A DNA stretch of 38,735 nt, taken from assembly GCA_028289885.1 (NCBI GenBank), contig JAQGKX010000014.1:1-38735 (forward strand). Direction: 5' to 3'. Position 1 is the stretch's first letter; each line of letters opens with the position of its first letter. A program made the translations under genes and the position numbers. Positions 15,942-38,735 of the stretch are shown here, in pieces. Source of the stretch: Sphingomonadales bacterium (GTDB taxonomy: Bacteria; Pseudomonadota; Alphaproteobacteria; Sphingomonadales; Sphingomonadaceae). Under the pieces are notes generated by a model. It was not told the origin of the DNA and made no database searches. It saw only the letters and a list, made by a program, of their open reading frames with translations.

Positions 15942-17627
15942 GTGGTGATTGCGACGATGGATATGCAACGAAGCGGCGATTTTGAGGGTTCTGCAGCCTT
16001 GTCCCTGCCCGTCGAGGCACCGGGGTCGGTGTCCCGCGACCCCATCGGCGTCGTTATCGAAATTTCGGGCTCTGCTTCGCAGATACGACTCGATGCGACT
16101 GCTCTGGCGCGTCTCGTCGACAATGACGATGCCAGCCTTGCCATGGGTGGTCAGGTCGGCAGCCTTATCAAGGTCAAGGTTGGATCGAACTGGCTGATGG
16201 CCAACGTCCGTACCTTGAAAGCCGACGGCGAAGGCAATGGGATCATCGGTTTCATCGACTTTCTGGGCGAAGGCGATGAAGAACGTCTCACCGGTAAGAT
16301 TTATAATTTCCGCCGCGGCGTAACGCGTTATCCGGTACCGGGGTCGGGCGTTTATCCCGTGACGAGCCAGGATATGCGCCAGATGTATGCAGCCGAGGAT
16401 CGGCCGCATATCGAAATCGGGACCGTCTATCCGACCCGCGACATCCGCGGCGCCCTGTTCATCGACGCGCTGCTCGGCAAGCATTTCGCACTTTTGGGTT
16501 CGACCGGTACGGGTAAATCGACCAGCGCCGCGTTGATCCTGCACAGGATCTGCGAGATGGCACCGCAGGGTCACATCGTCATGATCGATCCGCACGGAGA
16601 ATATTCGGCGGCATTCAAGACGAACGGAGCGCTGTTCGACGTGTCCAACCTTGCGATGCCGTATTGGTTGATGAACTTCGAGGAACATTGCGAGGTCTTC
16701 ATCTCGGGCAACAGGGAGGAACGACAGCTCGACGTCGATATTCTCGCGAAATGCCTGCTCGCCGCCAAGGCCAAGAGCCGCGCTGCGGAGGGCATTGCCA
16801 AGCTGACGGTCGATTCGCCGATCCCGTATCTGCTGAGCGACCTGACCTCGAACATTCAGGCTGAAATGGGCCGTCTGGACAAGGCGGGCGACAGCGCGCC
16901 GTACATGCGGCTGAAGACGAAGATCGACGAGATCAAGTCCGATCCGCGGTACAGCTTCATGTTCTCGGGGATGTTGGTCGCCGACACGATGGCGGGGTTT
17001 CTGGGCCGCGTGTTCCGCTTGCCGGGCGATGGCAAGCCGATCTCGATCATCGACGTTTCGGGCGTGCCCTCCGACATCACATCGGTCGTCGTTGCGGTGC
17101 TCGCGCGGCTGGTATTCGATTATGCGATCTGGTCGCGGAACGAACCGCAGCGCCCGATCCTGCTCGTTTGCGAAGAGGCGCATCGCTATGTTCCGGCGGA
17201 AAACGGCGGCGCGGTCAGTTCGGTGGGCAAGATACTTGGCCGGATCGCCAAGGAAGGTCGTAAATACGGGGTCTCGCTCGGGCTGATCACGCAGCGCCCG
17301 TCCGATCTGGCAGAAGGCGTGCTGTCGCAATGCGGCACGATCATCGCCATGCGCCTGAACAATGAACGCGATCAGGCCTATGTCCGGTCCGCCATGCCAG
17401 AAGGCGCGCGCGGGTTTCTTGATACCATCCCGGCCTTGCGCAATCGCGAATGCATCGTCTGCGGGGAAGGCGTCACCATTCCCATCCGTGTCGCCTTCGA
17501 TGCGCTCGAAGAAGTCAAACGTCCGGCGTCCACCGATCCACTGTTTTCGAAACTATGGACCGAGTCAGGCGGCGAGGACGAGATGCTCGGCCGTGTCATC
17601 AAGCGGTGGCGCAGTCAGGGCCGATAG
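15942..17627 (+). CDS. HerA-like ATPase (DUF87/HerA-FtsK superfamily)
   Basis: 561 residues from the first GTG. An N-terminal HAS-barrel-like beta domain (about 30-165) precedes a RecA-like motor: Walker A GSTGTGKST (186-194), IDPHGEYS, Walker B LLVCEEAH (407-414), sensor-like LITQRPSDL and a C-terminal arginine-rich segment. HerA proteins form hexamers that translocate on DNA, in archaea with the nuclease NurA for end resection; no NurA or other nuclease gene is adjacent. Starts at GTG 15942, GTG 15945, ATG 15957 and ATG 15963 are all possible: a GGTGGTGA stretch could serve ATG 15957 as ribosome site. Followed 15 bases later by the methyltransferase gene in the same direction. Confidence 0.82.
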   Translation: MVIATMDMQRSGDFEGSAALSLPVEAPGSVSRDPIGVVIEISGSASQIRLDATALARLVDNDDASLAMGGQVGSLIKVKVGSNWLMANVRTLKADGEGNGIIGFIDFLGEGDEERLTGKIYNFRRGVTRYPVPGSGVYPVTSQDMRQMYAAEDRPHIEIGTVYPTRDIRGALFIDALLGKHFALLGSTGTGKSTSAALILHRICEMAPQGHIVMIDPHGEYSAAFKTNGALFDVSNLAMPYWLMNFEEHCEVFISGNREERQLDVDILAKCLLAAKAKSRAAEGIAKLTVDSPIPYLLSDLTSNIQAEMGRLDKAGDSAPYMRLKTKIDEIKSDPRYSFMFSGMLVADTMAGFLGRVFRLPGDGKPISIIDVSGVPSDITSVVVAVLARLVFDYAIWSRNEPQRPILLVCEEAHRYVPAENGGAVSSVGKILGRIAKEGRKYGVSLGLITQRPSDLAEGVLSQCGTIIAMRLNNERDQAYVRSAMPEGARGFLDTIPALRNRECIVCGEGVTIPIRVAFDALEEVKRPASTDPLFSKLWTESGGEDEMLGRVIKRWRSQGR

Positions 17628-24695: not shown

Positions 24696-24774
24696 CCTTG
24701 TGTCGAGCCTAGTCGAGACACGTCCTCAACGCGTCGCTACCGTTGCCCGTGTCTCGACTTCGCTCGACACAAGG
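24696..24774. repeat. Intergenic palindromic repeat (27-base arms)
   Basis: Arms 24696-24722 and 24748-24774 are inverted copies with 25 of 27 positions matching, around a 25-base loop. The arm core is TGTCTCGACTTCGCTCGACA. The right arm is nearly the same (25 of 27) as 26976-27002 inside ileS. It fills the gap between pmbA and the next gene and could also fold as a large hairpin in RNA. Confidence 0.85.
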
Positions 24775-25580: not shown

Positions 25581-28500
25581 ATGACCGACACACCAGCGAC
25601 CGAAAAGCGCGACTATCGCGACACCGTCTTCCTGCCGAAGACCGATTTCCCCATGAAAGCCGGGCTCCCCGCCAAGGAGCCGGTCATTCTGGAACGTTGG
25701 AAGGCGGCTGGCCTGTACGACAAGCTCCGCGACGCGCGGCGCGGGCGTGAAAAGTTCATCCTCCACGATGGCCCGCCCTATGCGAATGGCGATATGCACA
25801 TCGGCCATGCGCTCAACCACATCCTGAAGGACATGGTTGTCCGCACGCAGACCCTGCTCGGCAAGGACGCGCCCTATGTCCCCGGCTGGGATTGCCACGG
25901 CCTGCCGATCGAGTGGAAGGTCGAGGAAGCGTATCGCAAGAAAAAGCTGAACAAGGACGAGGTTCCCGCCGCCGAGTTCCGCGCCGAATGCCGTACCTAT
26001 GCGAGGGGCTGGGTGGATGTTCAGCGCGAGCAGTTGAAGCGGTTGGGCATCAACGCCGACTGGGATCACCCCTATCTGACGATGGATTTCGAGGCCGAAG
26101 CGACGATCGTGTCCGAACTGATGAAGTTCGCCGACAGCGGCCAGCTTTATCGCGGTGCCAAGCCGGTGATGTGGTCGCCGGTCGAGAAGACGGCTTTGGC
26201 GGAAGCCGAGGTCGAATATGAGGACGTGGTTTCTACGCAGATCGATGTTGCGTTCGAGATTGTTGAGTCGGCGATCCCGGAACTGGTCGGCGCTTATGCG
26301 GTGATCTGGACGACGACGCCGTGGACGATTCCGGTCAATCAGGCTTTGGCTTATGGGCCTGAGATTGAGTATGTTTTGGCCAGCGACGGCAGCCGGAGAT
26401 ATCTCGTCGCACGAAATCTAATTGCCGACTTTCTGTCGCGAATGAAGGCTGAAGATGATCGCCGCCGATCGCTCGACCTTGGTTTGCGCGAGTGGAAATT
26501 TCAGCAGCCCACTTCAAATTCAATAGGCGTTTTCAAGGGTTCCGACCTAGCCGGAACCATCGCCCGCCACCCAATGCACGAACTCGGCGGCTTCTTCGCG
26601 CGCCCACGTCCGCTCCTCGCTGGCGATTTCGTCACGACAGAGACCGGCACCGGCCTCGTGCATATGTCACCCGACCACGGCGAAGATGATTTCCTGCTGT
26701 GCAAGGCCAACGGCATCGAACCCGTTTTCGCGGTCGAGGGCGACGGCAAATACCGCGCCGACTGGGCATGGCTCGGCGGGCAGGGATCGGTCATCAACGC
26801 AAAGTTCGTTGCGGCCGATGGCCCGATCTGCAACGACCTGCGCGAAGTCGGCGGCCTGCTCGCGGCCTCGGCAGATTACAAGCACAGCTATCCGCATAGC
26901 TGGCGCTCGAAAGCCAAGGTCATCTTCCGCTGCACGCCACAATGGTTCATTCCGATGGATGAGGCGGTTGCGGGACGTGTTTCGACTTCGCTCGACACAA
27001 GCGGAGAGGGGCCTGTTTCTAGTCCGTTAGTCCCGAGCGAAGGCTCTCTTGAGCGAAGTCGAAAGATCGCGGGACGGGCCACACCCACCACCCTCCGCCA
27101 GACAGCCCTGAAAGCCATAACCGACACCCGCTGGATCCCCGAAAAGGGCCGCAACCGCATCAACGCCATGGTAGAGGGCCGCCCGGATTGGGTCATCAGC
27201 CGCCAGCGCGCATGGGGCGTGCCGATCACCCTGTTCGTCGATCGCAAGACCGGCGCATACCTCAACGACCCGGCAGTCAACGCCCGGATCGTCGCCGCCG
27301 TCCGCGAAAAGGGCGTCGACGCATGGACCAACGAGGCGGCACAGGGCTTCCTCGGCAACGAATATGACGCCGCCGATTACGAGCGGCAGGTCGACATCCT
27401 CGACGTGTGGTTCGACAGTGGCTGCACCCATGCGTTCGTGCTGGAATCGGGCAAATGGCCCGACCTGCTGCGTCCGGAAGGCTACACTGGTCCCCCCGCC
27501 GACCTGTATCTCGAAGGCAGCGACCAGCATCGTGGCTGGTTCCAGTCGTCGCTGCTCGAAAGCTGCGGCACGCGCGGTCATGCACCTTATAAAGCGGTCC
27601 TGACCCACGGCTTCACGATGGATGCGAAGGGCATGAAAATGTCCAAGTCGCTCGGCAACACCATCGACCCTCAGATGCTGATGAAGGACAGCGGTGCCGA
27701 CATATTGCGTCTGTGGGCGCTGAGCATCGATTTCACCGAAGACAATCGCATCGGCAAGGAAATCCTCAGCGGCATTTCGGACCAGTATCGCAAACTCCGC
27801 AACACGTTCCGCTATCTGCTCGGCGCGTTGGAAGGGTTTTCCGAAGCCGAACGTGTGCCGGTCGCGGAAATGCCCGAACTCGAACGCTATATTCTACATT
27901 TATTGGCAGAAATGGACTCAAAACTGCGTCTCGCAGTGGACGCTTTCGACTTTAACACTTACGTCCGCCTGCTGAGCGACTTCGCCAACAACGACCTCAG
28001 CGCCTTCTTCTTCGATATCCGCAAGGACTCGCTTTATTGCGACGTCGGGCCAGCGTTGCCGGAGGGTAAGCCGAAGCGGCGGGCTTATCGGACGGTATTG
28101 GATACAGTGTTCGAGGCTTTGGTGCGGTGGGCTGCGCCGGTTCTGGTGTTTACGGCGGAGGAAGTGTGGATGACGCGTCATCCTGAAGCCGGGTCGGTGC
28201 ATTTGTTGGAGTGGCCTAATCTTCCAAATATCGACGAAAACGAAAGACTGATAGGAAAGTGGGGGCGTTTCCGAGAACTGCGCTCAATGGTATCGGAGGC
28301 TGTAGAACCGTTACGGCGAGAGAAGATTGTAGGCTCAAGCTTAGAGGCGAACGTTCAACTTTACATTGACGAGTCTGAGCGCACATCAATCGATCTGCCT
28401 GAATTTGCAGAGACATGCATTGTGTCGAAAGTGTTTTGGAGCGCTATCACTTACAATCAAGATCAGGTTTCGAGCGTCGTTAAGAACACAGAACAAAAAT

Positions 28501-28589
28501 GCGGTCGCTGTTGGCGTCACCTTCCCGAAGTCGTGGAAGACGGCGACCTGTGTGACCGTTGTACCGAAGTTGTCGGCGAACTCGCATGA
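25581..28589 (+). CDS. ileS: Isoleucine-tRNA ligase
   Basis: 1002 residues. Class I synthetase motifs HIGH (73-76) and KMSKS (686-690), the CP1 editing domain between, the anticodon-binding helical domain (about 790-960), and C-terminal zinc fingers CGRC (974-977) and CDRC (991-994). Known reaction: ATP-dependent charging of tRNA-Ile with editing of valine. Two oddities. Residues 464-496 are a 33-residue in-frame insertion coded by a palindromic element, placed between PMDEAV and the conserved TLRQTALKAI. Also the stretches about 26220-26530 and 28220-28500 use visibly more A/T-ending codons than the rest. The reading frame is intact, so the enzyme is presumably functional. ATGA overlap with lspA. 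Confidence 0.96.
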   Translation: MTDTPATEKRDYRDTVFLPKTDFPMKAGLPAKEPVILERWKAAGLYDKLRDARRGREKFILHDGPPYANGDMHIGHALNHILKDMVVRTQTLLGKDAPYVPGWDCHGLPIEWKVEEAYRKKKLNKDEVPAAEFRAECRTYARGWVDVQREQLKRLGINADWDHPYLTMDFEAEATIVSELMKFADSGQLYRGAKPVMWSPVEKTALAEAEVEYEDVVSTQIDVAFEIVESAIPELVGAYAVIWTTTPWTIPVNQALAYGPEIEYVLASDGSRRYLVARNLIADFLSRMKAEDDRRRSLDLGLREWKFQQPTSNSIGVFKGSDLAGTIARHPMHELGGFFARPRPLLAGDFVTTETGTGLVHMSPDHGEDDFLLCKANGIEPVFAVEGDGKYRADWAWLGGQGSVINAKFVAADGPICNDLREVGGLLAASADYKHSYPHSWRSKAKVIFRCTPQWFIPMDEAVAGRVSTSLDTSGEGPVSSPLVPSEGSLERSRKIAGRATPTTLRQTALKAITDTRWIPEKGRNRINAMVEGRPDWVISRQRAWGVPITLFVDRKTGAYLNDPAVNARIVAAVREKGVDAWTNEAAQGFLGNEYDAADYERQVDILDVWFDSGCTHAFVLESGKWPDLLRPEGYTGPPADLYLEGSDQHRGWFQSSLLESCGTRGHAPYKAVLTHGFTMDAKGMKMSKSLGNTIDPQMLMKDSGADILRLWALSIDFTEDNRIGKEILSGISDQYRKLRNTFRYLLGALEGFSEAERVPVAEMPELERYILHLLAEMDSKLRLAVDAFDFNTYVRLLSDFANNDLSAFFFDIRKDSLYCDVGPALPEGKPKRRAYRTVLDTVFEALVRWAAPVLVFTAEEVWMTRHPEAGSVHLLEWPNLPNIDENERLIGKWGRFRELRSMVSEAVEPLRREKIVGSSLEANVQLYIDESERTSIDLPEFAETCIVSKVFWSAITYNQDQVSSVVKNTEQKCGRCWRHLPEVVEDGDLCDRCTEVVGELA
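26970..27076 (+). mobile_element. In-frame palindromic insertion element within ileS
   Basis: The 8-base sequence GCGGGACG occurs at 26970-26977 and again at 27069-27076, exactly 99 bases apart, as a target-site duplication would. Between them are perfect 14-base inverted repeats, TTTCGACTTCGCTC (26980-26993) and its complement (27051-27064), and an inner GAGAG/CTCTC pair. The left part (26976-27002) matches the intergenic palindrome at 24748-24774 in 25 of 27 bases. It adds 33 codons without a stop to IleRS. It codes no protein of its own and is likely non-autonomous. Confidence 0.75.
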
Positions 28590-33695: not shown

Positions 33696-35306
33696 CTACC
33701 GGAACAACCCGCCCAATATCCCGCGCAGCAATTGACCCCCCACTTTGCCGGCAATTTGGCGTCCAACCGAACTCGCCACCGACCGCGCCGCCGACTTCAT
33801 CATGCCGTCGAGTATTGTCGGCTTGGCGGCTTCGCGCGCGGCGATGGCGGCCTGGCGATCGGCGGCTGCCTGAACTCGTACTGCTTCACGATTTGCGATG
33901 GCCTGCGTCTGCGCATTGACCTTGGCGGTTTGCGCATCAAGCTTGGCTTGAGCGGCGGCGGCCTTTGCGGCTTCGCCCTGTGCCTTCGTCTCGGCGGCTG
34001 CGGCAGAGGCTGCGGTCGATTTCGCGGCAAGGATTTCCTCGGCCGACTCGCGGTCGATCAGCGTGTCGTACTTCGATCCGATAGCGTCGGTCGTAATCAT
34101 TACGCTGCGTTCCTGCAGCGTAATCGGTCCGACGCGCGAGGCGGGCGGCTTGATCAAGGTGCGCTCGACAGGCGTCGGCGCACCGTCCGCCTGCAGCAGC
34201 GACACCAGCGCCTCACCAACTTTCAACTCGGTGATGATCGTCGCGACATCGACGCCCGGGTTGGCACGGAAGGTTTCGGCGGCGGATTTCACCGCAGCTT
34301 GATCGCGTGGGGTGAATGCCCGGAGCGCATGCTGGACGCGGTTGCCCAACTGGCCAGCCACGGTGTCGGGAATGTCGATAGGATTTTGGGTGATGAAGTA
34401 AACGCCGACGCCCTTCGACCGGATCAGGCGGACGACCTGTTCGATCTTGTCGAGCAACGCCTTGGGCGCGCCATCAAACAGCAAGTGCGCTTCGTCGAAA
34501 AAGAAACAGAGCTTCGGCTTGTCGGGGTCGCCAATCTCGGGAAGCGTCTCGAACAATTCGCTGAGCAGCCATAGCAGGAAGGTCGAATAAAGCTTCGGAC
34601 TCGCCATCAGTTTATCGGCAGCGAGTATATTGACGACGCCGCGACCATTCTCGTCCAGCGCAATGAAATCCATCATGTCGAGCGCGGGTTCTCCAAAGAA
34701 ATGCTCGGCCCCCTGGCTGCGAAGCTGGAGCAGCGACCGCTGGATAGTGCCGACGCTCTGCTTGGAGACATTACCGTAAGTGGTCGTCAGTTCGTCCGCG
34801 CGCTCGGCACAGTGAACGAGCATCGACTGAAGATCGTCGAGGTCGAGCAGCAGCAATCCCTCTTTGTCGGCGACGTGGAATGCGATGGTCAGCACGCCTT
34901 CCTGAACTTCGTTGAGGTCCATCAGGCGCGCGAGCAGTACCGGACCCATTTCGGAAATTGTCGCGCGGATCGGGTGGCCCTGTTCGCCGAACAAATCCCA
35001 GAATTGGGTTGGTGTGTCCTTATACGCCCAGTCGGTGTCGCCGATCTCGGCAGCGCGCGCCGCGAAAATCTCGTGGGTCTTTGCAGTGGGCGATCCGGCC
35101 ATGGCGAGACCCGATAAATCGCCTTTCACGTCGGCAACGAAGCATGGCACGCCGTCGTTCGAAAAACCCTCGACGATGCCCTGCAGGGTGACGGTCTTCC
35201 CGGTGCCGGTCGCGCCCGCGATCAGGCCGTGGCGGTTGGCGCGTTTCAGGTTCAGTATTTGTCGCTGGCCACCGCCAGTACCGATGAAAATGCCGTCTTC
35301 CGCCAT
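33696..35306 (-). CDS. DUF853 HerA-like ATPase
   Basis: 536 residues. Walker A GATGTGKT (31-38), [11 protein letters not shown], Walker [12 protein letters not shown] (near 270), [11 protein letters not shown] and the sensor-like [14 protein letters not shown] mark the HerA/VirB4-type DUF853 family (YjgR-like). About residues 450-510 form an alanine-rich charged helix, likely a coiled coil, and the last 40 residues are Gly/Ala-rich and basic ([21 protein letters not shown]). The function is unknown; DNA pumping is inferred from the fold. ATG 35306 has GGAG five bases upstream; the open frame reaches 35378 but adds nothing recognisable. It lies 75 bases after degP on the same strand, beyond a GC hairpin. 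Confidence 0.85.
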
Positions 35307-35381: not shown

Positions 35382-36917
35382 TTACTTGGTGTTGAACTTC
35401 ACCGCGATGTACCGCGCCGGTGTCGCGCCACGCTGGACTTGAAGCAAAACGTTTTCACGCCCGGCTGCCTTTGCGGCCTTGACGATGGCGGCAACCTCGG
35501 CTGGCGTCAGCACCGGGCGCTGGTTGACTGAAATGATGACATCCCCGCGCTGGAAACCCTTGGCACCGGCATCGCTGGATGGATCGACCGCACCGATGAC
35601 GACGCCCTTGGTCCCGGCAGGCAGACTGAGCTGGCGCGCGATAACGGGGGTCAGCGCCTGTACCGAAAGGCCGAGCGAGTCCTGCGTCGCCTGTTGCGTC
35701 GTCTTGTCGTCGGTCGGTGGCAGGCCATTGTCGTCGCCATCACCGCCGCCCACGATCGAGGCAAGCTGTTCATCGGTCGGGCGTTCGGTCAGGACCGCCG
35801 TTACCGACAGCCGATTGCCGCCGCGTATCAGTTCGATCGGGACGCGCGAACCGATCGGCAGGTTCGACACGATGAACGACAGTGTCTCATCCGGTGTCAC
35901 GTCGCGCCCATTGACCTTGACGATCACATCGCCCTGCTGGATCCCAGCGCGCGCTGCTGGCTGGTTCGGCTCGACCTTTGCCACCAGTTCTCCGCGATTT
36001 TTAGGGAGTCCGAGTGAGTCAAAGATGCCCGGGTCCATCGGGTTGAGCTGGATGCCGAGATAACCGCGCTTGACCTTCGCGCCACCCTTCAGCGTTTCGA
36101 CGATCGGACGCGCGAGTTCGGCAGGGATCGCGAAGCCGATGCCGACATTGCCGCCGGTCGGTGAATAGATCGCCGAATTGATGCCAATAACGTTGCCGTT
36201 CAAATCGAACATCGGGCCACCCGAGTTGCCCTGATTGATCGCGGCATCGGTCTAGATGTAGCGGTCGAACGGCCCCGAACCGATGTTACGATGAAGCGCG
36301 GAAACGATACCTGCCGTCACGCTGCCGCCCAAACCATAGGGGTTGCCGATCGCGACGACCCAGTCACCAACGCGCGATTTCGAGGAATCGCCGAACTTCA
36401 CGAAGGGCAGGCCGTGACCGTCGATCTTCAGCACTGCAAGATCGGACGAACTGTCACGCCCGACGACCTTGGCCGAATATTCCTTGCGGTCGGGCATCGT
36501 CACGGTGATCTGGCCGACCGGGCCATTGCCCGGCTTGCCACCTGAAATCACATGGTTGTTCGTGACGACATAACCGTCTTCGGAAATGATGAAGCCCGAG
36601 CCGAGCGACGTCGCCTCACGCGTGACCGGTGCGCCGCCGCCCTGGCCCTGTCCGAACAGGTCGCCGAACGGCGTTCCGGCGAACGGATTATTGGCCTGGA
36701 CCTCGACCTTTGAAGTGGTCGAAATGTTCACCACCGCAGGCTGCAGTCGTGCCGCCAGATCGGCGAAGCTCATCGGCGCTCCGGGAGCAGCGGGTGCTGC
36801 ATGGATCGTGCCCGGCTCGTTCTGGGCGACCTGCGCGCCCGATGGCGACTGCAGGGTCATTGTTGCAGCGGTTCCGGCAATCAGCAGTCCGGTCGTAATT
36901 GCATAGGCGTAACGCAC
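35382..36917 (-). pseudogene. degP: Do-family serine protease DegP/HtrA interrupted by an in-frame amber codon
   Basis: 511 codons from GTG 36917 (AAGGA nine bases upstream), full length for Do proteases, but TAG stands at codon 222 (36254-36252). N-terminal membrane/signal segment, trypsin-like domain with H122 (TNNHVISGG) and D159 (SDLAVLKID); after the stop the frame goes on unchanged with TDAAINQGNSGGPMFD, where the catalytic serine would be S232, and two PDZ domains (GYLGIQLNPMDPG... and VQALTPVIARQLSLP...). Homologues read DRYIQTDAAINQGNSGGP, so the stop sits exactly at the Gln codon: one C-to-T change, CAG to TAG. The truncated product has no catalytic serine and no PDZ domains. Last gene of the hflK-hflC-degP operon. 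It could be a real mutation, a sequencing error, or partly suppressed. Confidence 0.85.
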
Positions 36918-37004: not shown

Positions 37005-37868
37005 TTATTTATCACCCCGGAACTGGCGCAGATAGTCGTTGCTTGGGCTCAGGATGATCGAAGACTGTCCCGATGGATTGCTGCCATCGGCACCGAAGGT
37101 GTGACGATAGGACTGCATGGCCCGGTAAAAGTCATAAAATGAGGCATCCTTGTTGAAGGCGGCCGCATAAATACCGGCGGCCTGGGCATCGGCGTCGGCC
37201 CGGATGATCTGGGCATCGCGCAACCCCTTGGCCCGCAGCGTCAGCGCCTCCTGCGAACGGGCGGTCCGCATTCTTTCATAGGCCGAATCAAGCGGCGTAC
37301 CCTCGGGCAAATCCGCCTTCTTGATCCGCACGTCGATTATCTCAGCACCATATTGGCCTGCGATTCTGTTCAGGCCGATGCGGATATTATTCATGACCGC
37401 GCCGCGTTCGGGGCTGAGCAGCAACGCGAACTGCCGCTTGCCAAGTTCGTTGCGCAGCGCCGAACCGAGGATCGGCTGCAGGGCTTCCGAGACATTCTCC
37501 TCCTTGCCTGCAGTCTTGAACATGCGCAGCGGATCGACAATCCGATAGCGCGCGAACGCATCGATGTTCAGGCGCAACTGGTCAGTCGACAGCACCTGCT
37601 GGCGCTCCATCTCGACATCGCGAACGCGCTTGTCGATCCAGATGATCTGTTCGGCAAACGGAATATGCGCGATCAGCCCGGCACCGGTATGGCCGAACTG
37701 CTCGCCACGTTCATACCCATTGATGATCCGCACCGGTTCACCGAAGCGGAGCACCACGCCCTGCCGTGTTTCGGGAACGATGGCGAATGTGTTGGAGGCG
37801 AGGAACAATACGATCAGCGCGACGATCGCCAGCGCTATCGGATTGCGGAGGAAGATGGAGCCGTTCAT
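37005..37868 (-). CDS. hflC: Protease modulator HflC (SPFH/band 7 domain)
   Basis: 287 residues. An N-terminal membrane helix (about 9-30), then the SPFH domain with VVLRFGEPVRI, IPFAEQIIWIDKRVRDVEMERQ-type segment and LNIDAFARYRIVDPLRMF, and a C-terminal helical part with SQEALTLRAKGLRDAQIIRADADAQAAGIYAAAFNKD. Known role: with HflK forms a large periplasm-facing cage around FtsH that limits its access to membrane proteins. ATG 37868 overlaps the hflK stop (ATGA). degP begins 87 bases downstream on the same strand. Confidence 0.94.
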   Translation of the reverse strand: MNGSIFLRNPIALAIVALIVLFLASNTFAIVPETRQGVVLRFGEPVRIINGYERGEQFGHTGAGLIAHIPFAEQIIWIDKRVRDVEMERQQVLSTDQLRLNIDAFARYRIVDPLRMFKTAGKEENVSEALQPILGSALRNELGKRQFALLLSPERGAVMNNIRIGLNRIAGQYGAEIIDVRIKKADLPEGTPLDSAYERMRTARSQEALTLRAKGLRDAQIIRADADAQAAGIYAAAFNKDASFYDFYRAMQSYRHTFGADGSNPSGQSSIILSPSNDYLRQFRGDK

Positions 37869-38735
37869 TGGGCCGCTCCTGCCTGCGCAACGGGTGCCGG
37901 AACCTTCTTAGCGCCGGGCAGCGGCAGATATGGCGTCACGCCCGCGGGCTCGACGACCGTCTTGTCCACCTTCGACAGGACCTCCTCCATGGTTTCATAA
38001 TACATACGGCGACGGGTAACCTCCGGAGCCAGTTTATATTGGGTATAGACGCGGTCGAACGCGGCGGCTTCACCCTGCGCGCGGGCGATAACCTGCTGCG
38101 CCAGTGCGTTGGCCTGGTTGACCGAAGTCTGCGCCGCCTGTTGTGCCGCCGACACCTCCTTGAAGGCATCGTTCACGGCTTCCGGAGGACCGGCGTTCTT
38201 GACCGCGACACCCTGGATTTTCACGCCCGAACGATATTTGTCGAGCAATGCCTGCATCCGCTGCGTCACTTCGGCTTCGATGCCGGTACGGCCCGAACCG
38301 ATTGCGTCGTTGAGCGAAATATTGGCAATGGCCGCGCGCATGGCGCTTTCGGCAACGGCCTTGATCGTCGCATCGGGGTCGGCAAGCTGGAACAAATAAA
38401 GCTCCGGATCCTTGATCGACCAGCGAATCGAATAGTCGAGGTCGATGATGTTCTCATCGCGCGTCAGGACCAGCTTTTCACCGGCACCGTCGGGGATGTC
38501 GATCAGGCGGATGTTCTGCACATCGATGGTCTGGACCCGCTCGATCGGGGCGGGGAAGGTCAGGCTGACACCCGGCTCCAGTGTCCGCGAATATTTACCG
38601 AACATCGTCACGACGCCGCGTTCCTGCGGGTCGATCCGGTGAACGCAGCTGAACGCGAGCCAGAGAGCAACTGCGGCGACCGCGACATATTTCCAGATCG
38701 GACCTGCGGTCCACGTCGGCATCCTGCCACCGCCG
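37865..38735 (-). CDS. hflK: FtsH protease modulator HflK (partial, N-terminus outside window)
   Basis: At least 290 residues; the frame stays open to the window edge and the codons before ATG 38722 read Gly-Gly-Gly-Arg, matching the Gly-rich cytoplasmic N-terminus of HflK, so the true start lies outside. A membrane helix (WKYVAVAAVALWLAFSCV), then the SPFH domain with FGKYSRTLEPGVSLTFPAP, LVLTRDENIIDLDYSIRW and AQGEAAAFDRVYTQYKLAPEVTRRRMYYETMEEVL-type C-terminal part are family features. It partners HflC in the FtsH-HflKC complex. The tail is Pro/Ala-rich. The end overlaps hflC by four bases. Confidence 0.93.
   Translation of the reverse strand, partial: GGGRMPTWTAGPIWKYVAVAAVALWLAFSCVHRIDPQERGVVTMFGKYSRTLEPGVSLTFPAPIERVQTIDVQNIRLIDIPDGAGEKLVLTRDENIIDLDYSIRWSIKDPELYLFQLADPDATIKAVAESAMRAAIANISLNDAIGSGRTGIEAEVTQRMQALLDKYRSGVKIQGVAVKNAGPPEAVNDAFKEVSAAQQAAQTSVNQANALAQQVIARAQGEAAAFDRVYTQYKLAPEVTRRRMYYETMEEVLSKVDKTVVEPAGVTPYLPLPGAKKVPAPVAQAGAAQ

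Follow-up and report, generated by a model that had tools for sequence, protein, structure and literature searches.

An in-frame amber codon ahead of the catalytic serine of degP in a draft sphingomonad genome

The window described here is the whole stretch of 38,735 nucleotides that was analyzed. It is contig C147 of a genome (G000) of 3,078,751 bases in 211 contigs, which is 83.99% complete and 6.17% contaminated and which its relatives identify as that of a sphingomonad. The contig count and the quality figures suggest that the genome was probably assembled from a metagenome. The part of the window that carries degP, the gene of a periplasmic serine protease, is organized as follows.

35382 to 36917, minus strand: degP (Do-family periplasmic serine protease, TIGR02037), 511 codons including one internal TAG.
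36252 to 36254, minus strand: the in-frame TAG, codon 222 of degP, a Gln codon in relatives.
36255 to 36917, minus strand: the upstream product if translation stops, 221 amino acids with the catalytic His and Asp, lacking the Ser, with a predicted N-terminal export signal.
35382 to 36251, minus strand: the downstream part of degP, containing the end of the protease domain with GNSGGP and then two PDZ stretches.
37005 to 38722, minus strand: an hflC-like gene and hflK, upstream of degP, both open in comparison with the relatives G006 and G001.

The degP frame runs from a GTG at 36917, picked to match the frames of G006 and G001, to a TAA at 35384-35382 and is otherwise open. The plus-strand letters at 36252-36254 are CTA, which gives TAG on the minus strand. 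Upstream of this codon lie a His in the motif TNNHV (codon 122) and an Asp in SSDLAV (codon 159). The serine of GNSGGP, the predicted catalytic residue, is codon 232, ten codons past the TAG. The roles of the three residues, which we take to be those of the HtrA family, were assigned on that basis, and the three motifs also align in the PDB matches. As Ser 232 lies beyond codon 222, the His-Asp-Ser triad is not contained in one uninterrupted frame. The first-pass annotation had described an amber codon at 36252-36254 within a 511-codon frame, ten codons ahead of the catalytic serine, and re-reading of the sequence agrees with it.

The two parts of the gene belong together. The TIGR02037 profile is matched from position 2 to 172 upstream of the TAG and from 174 to 428 downstream, so that the halves together span one family. 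With the stop read through, the product scores 449.5 bits against a cut-off of 416.2 and is thus a member of the Do family, while the single halves score 182.4 and 249 bits, both under the cut-off. The trypsin-like domain (PF13365 and PF00089) is found mostly before the TAG, and PDZ_2 (PF13180) is found twice after it. Scanned by codon usage, 238,735 bases contained 1,060 stops with open flanks, eight of which passed the filters with the degP TAG at their top. A larger scan, for stops only, covered the window and 30 further stretches in a non-random choice (547,320 bases, 17.8% of the genome). It contained 2,777 open-flank stops, of which 14 were flagged; the degP TAG ranks third among them, and the two stops that outrank it are, by reading, ordinary gene ends. 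The match of both halves to one profile and the ranks in these scans show that the TAG sits inside a true coding frame and is no chance reading. The gene resembles other Do-family DegP/HtrA genes in that a trypsin-like domain is followed by PDZ (two stretches) and in its position beside hflK and an hflC-like gene, but differs from them in that its frame is broken ahead of the catalytic serine.

Of these two neighbors, hflK has a product that scores above its NCBIfam cut-off, whereas the hflC-like gene finds its best match in HflC without reaching the cut-off (109.1 bits, cut-off 134.4). Elsewhere in the window, a HerA-like ATPase is encoded at 15942-17627 on the plus strand (strong PADLOC HerA match, E 9.7e-115), and a second one, with a weak PADLOC match (best HerA model E 3.4e-11), at 33696-35306 on the minus strand. 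A Gln/Gly-rich protein encoded at 444-1406 on the minus strand has a run of 13 Gln, and its dN/dS of 0.20 against G001 is among the highest in the window.

A palindromic repeat found in ileS is more unusual than the degP stop. The ileS gene (25581-28589, plus strand; TIGR00392 above cut-off) carries at 26967-27074 a stretch of 36 extra in-frame codons with a palindromic REP-like repeat, which is absent from G006; in ileS of G001 the missing stretch at this position is slightly longer. The core of the repeat occurs in 31 copies in the genome (at most two mismatches), as opposed to zero or one in each of 20 relatives, and the reversed control pattern occurs in none of the 21 genomes. The segment 26970-27090 folds as a hairpin with a z of -2.1, four of 200 shuffles folding equally well. 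A further copy of the repeat, arranged as an inverted pair, occupies an intergenic position at 24697-24773. A Y1 (REP-type) transposase was not found in the genome, which is 84% complete. Palindromic elements are inserted in genes of Rickettsia, and the ileS repeat resembles them.

The codon replaced by the TAG is strongly conserved. All 112 degP places fetched from relatives, some genomes being counted twice, have Gln at this site (101 CAG and 11 CAA), in agreement with the conserved Gln proposed earlier, and in an alignment of up to 105 distinct sequences the column is invariant except in the window. A degP match at E <= 1e-90 is present in 389 of the 397 genomes of the family, and degP was found in 358 of the 360 with a completeness of 90% or more and a contamination of 5% or less. 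Among the 150 degP places listed from this family search, which were checked for stops, only that of the window has an internal stop. A comparison of 59 genomes, counting that of the window, gave no further degP match of E <= 1e-90 with a stop inside. The nearest relatives are G006 and G001, whose DegP proteins are 97% and 94% identical, respectively, to that of the window. Pieces of the window are 69-91% identical to them at the DNA level, and both are therefore taken as other species.

Several apparent lesions in other genomes have been set aside. The TAG in G142 is at query residue 511 and is the gene's own end; the split of degP in G005 falls at a run of N, which is an assembly gap; and the stop-bearing weak matches in G046 (E 1.4e-11) and G007 (E 4.3e-4) are taken for other proteins. 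The degP of G013 has a frame change, by reading, in a genome that is 86% complete and 7% contaminated. A literature search gave no report of a degP nonsense mutation in sphingomonads among the matches listed, and the accessible part of one of the sources (PMC8629427) contains no statement on sphingomonads.

The degP gene is under strong purifying selection. Its dN/dS (Nei-Gojobori) is 0.024 against G006, the third lowest among 24 comparable genes of the window, and 0.037 against G001. Against G006 the ratio is 0.011 before the stop and 0.033 after it and is thus low on either side, so that no relaxation of constraint is visible. Lineage-private changes number 8 in the window, the stop itself being one of them, 8 in G006 and 20 in G001. 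The alignments to G006 and G001 contain no further stop or frame change. The earlier description of a single transition in an otherwise undamaged gene therefore holds. Signs of long-standing decay are absent, although with a synonymous distance as large as 0.85 a recent loss would escape dN/dS.

A true loss of DegP should be costly, as it is the only Do-family protease above the cut-off in the genome and neither G001 (98% complete) nor G006 (100% complete) has a second Do-like match. Another Do protease, for which the first-pass annotation had advised a search, was not found above the TIGR02037 cut-off in the genome. The next match, on contig C141, has a trypsin-like domain but scores 75.1 bits against 416.2 and has no PDZ match at E 0.1; matches of this type also occur in G001 and G006. 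If the TAG were real and obeyed, the product would be a protein of 221 residues with the His and Asp and no Ser. The first start codon past the TAG is the ATG at 36212, which is beyond the codon of the catalytic serine. A product restarted there would have neither the Ser nor the predicted export signal, and the predicted DegP activity would be lost. In Escherichia coli, degP is dispensable under mild conditions.

Other interruptions are few in the part of the assembly sampled. Comparison with G006 or G001 reveals, by reading, no break in any other window gene compared, and the remaining stops flagged there fall within shadow frames or ahead of gene starts. The 14 stops flagged in the larger scan include, by reading, two internal ones (in degP and in a gene for a Rieske-type ring-hydroxylating oxygenase), six gene ends shortly before the next gene, and five that resemble shadow frames or weak signals. 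A Pfam search was made with 10 pieces from the list of the first scan and one more. For the fourteenth stop, at L173:6003 (TAA), the piece before it matches DUF7065 at 26.5 bits, just under the cut-off of 27, and the piece after the stop has no Pfam match at E 0.1. The scan would flag 2086 of the 3148 codon positions tested in known genes. In control stretches one stop was flagged in G006 (44,000 bases) and one in G001 (46,000 bases), the latter being a gene end by reading.

The stop in the Rieske-type oxygenase gene is the second in-frame TAG (L173:16209, at about 96,209 of contig C55, plus strand). PF00848 is matched from 1 to 143 before it and, weakly, from 169 to 207 after it (E 0.00048, below the Pfam cut-off). 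The places in 11 of 12 relatives, at 34-40% identity, align on beyond the TAG, and the residues at the site vary; in the same search a TGA is reported inside the match for the place in G023. The Rieske TAG shows that the lesion in degP is not unique in the assembly. Sites that are otherwise invariant show no excess of private changes: there is one in degP (the stop), none in hflC, none in the HerA-like gene, one in a thioesterase-like gene and two in hflK, which ties with the highest among its 71 relatives. Two clear internal stops over the 547,320 bases sampled are a modest rate; the assembly shows no obvious load of errors, and the rate by itself does not convict it.

TAG is an ordinary stop in this genome, as it terminates 10 of the 34 window genes, release factor RF1 is present (prfA, 491.4 bits against a cut-off of 423.25), and no tRNA with a CUA anticodon was found among 41. 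Neither avoidance of TAG nor loss of RF1, the marks of recoding, is observed. The 41 tRNA matches were obtained with Rfam; the anticodons come from ARAGORN for 30 of them and for nine of the other 11, and from alignments for the last two, which are cut by contig ends and read as GAC and CAU. The amber-suppressor tRNA that the first-pass annotation had suggested looking for is thus missing from the 41 matches in a genome that is 83.99% complete. The absence of CUA is no proof, because the set is without several essential members (tRNAs for Phe, Tyr, Ile and Gln-CUG were not seen among the matches, by reading), in line with the 84% completeness. TAG is the commonest one-step nonsense codon: in 25 window genes it is the outcome of 1399 of 2512 single-base routes to a stop and of 366 of the 643 that are transitions. 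That both internal stops are TAG is therefore unremarkable.

By combining these observations it is possible to weigh the readings of the degP stop. It is rather probable that degP is functional and that the record has one wrong base, introduced by a consensus error, by base calling or as a minority variant in the consensus. In a fragmented draft assembly, such an error or variant might enter the consensus and appear as a TAG in the degP record, while the bacterium's own degP most likely encodes full-length DegP. We infer that the TAG base is absent from the DNA of the cell. This reading is built on what the data show: a TAG in an otherwise intact gene, a Gln codon at this site in relatives, strong purifying selection, TAG in its ordinary role as a stop, and the quality of the draft. 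It is preferred for three reasons: 1) errors strike genes regardless of selection; 2) real null alleles should seldom occur in a gene that is near-universal and strongly constrained and for which no Do-family paralogue was found; 3) false internal stops have been described in assemblies (PMC11017572). Cooley and Wright (2024, PMC11017572) report that many internal-stop pseudogenes are assembly errors, linked to the coverage, the platform and the assembler. The degP stop is like the spurious draft pseudogenes described there in being one base in a sound, conserved gene of a modest draft with no decay. It differs from them in that the error is inferred here from the sequence, where proof would take reads and near-identical assemblies. 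The preference for a base error is moderate, and a genuine nonsense mutation of recent origin would produce the same picture.

Such a mutation, arisen very recently in the population or strain sequenced and stopping translation at codon 222, is a tenable reading of lower probability. One transition explains it, the remaining degP is sound, no CUA tRNA is among the 41 matches, and other internal stops are few in the 18% of the assembly sampled; the dispensability of degP in E. coli, mentioned above, also speaks for it. However, degP is near-universal, has a low dN/dS and is accompanied by no second Do protease, which makes a dominant null less likely than a base error, and the quality of the draft is modest. 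With known single-mutation nonsense pseudogenes the gene shares the one step to a stop, the sole lesion and a product that is likely inactive, but it is near-universal, under strong purifying selection and without a Do-family paralogue found. The suggestion of a laboratory-adapted or stressed strain is not borne out, since the genome is a fragmented, incomplete and mildly contaminated draft with no sign of a cultured line.

Read-through of a genuine TAG, whether by an amber suppressor tRNA or by partial recoding, to give full-length DegP is very unlikely. Both clear internal stops sampled are TAG and a suppressor may be encoded in sequence that the assembly lacks, but no CUA is among the 41 tRNAs, RF1 is above its cut-off, TAG ends 10 of 34 window genes, and two of two carries little weight for the commonest one-step nonsense codon. 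Still more improbable is that in-frame TAGs are tolerated in several genes by means of a suppressor tRNA encoded outside the assembled contigs, TAG serving both as stop and as sense. The gene does not look like a decayed pseudogene, with a dN/dS of 0.024 against G006 and no further lesions in the alignments to G006 and G001. The first-pass annotation had thus named the right set of options (a recent event, an error or read-through), and the tRNAs, RF1 and the use of TAG allow them to be ranked, with error ahead of recent mutation and read-through far behind.

The degP stop is at present above all a warning: where a conserved gene of a draft genome is damaged at a single base, the reads should be consulted before any biological interpretation is attempted. 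A real TAG would represent a rare loss of the sole Do protease found in a sphingomonad.
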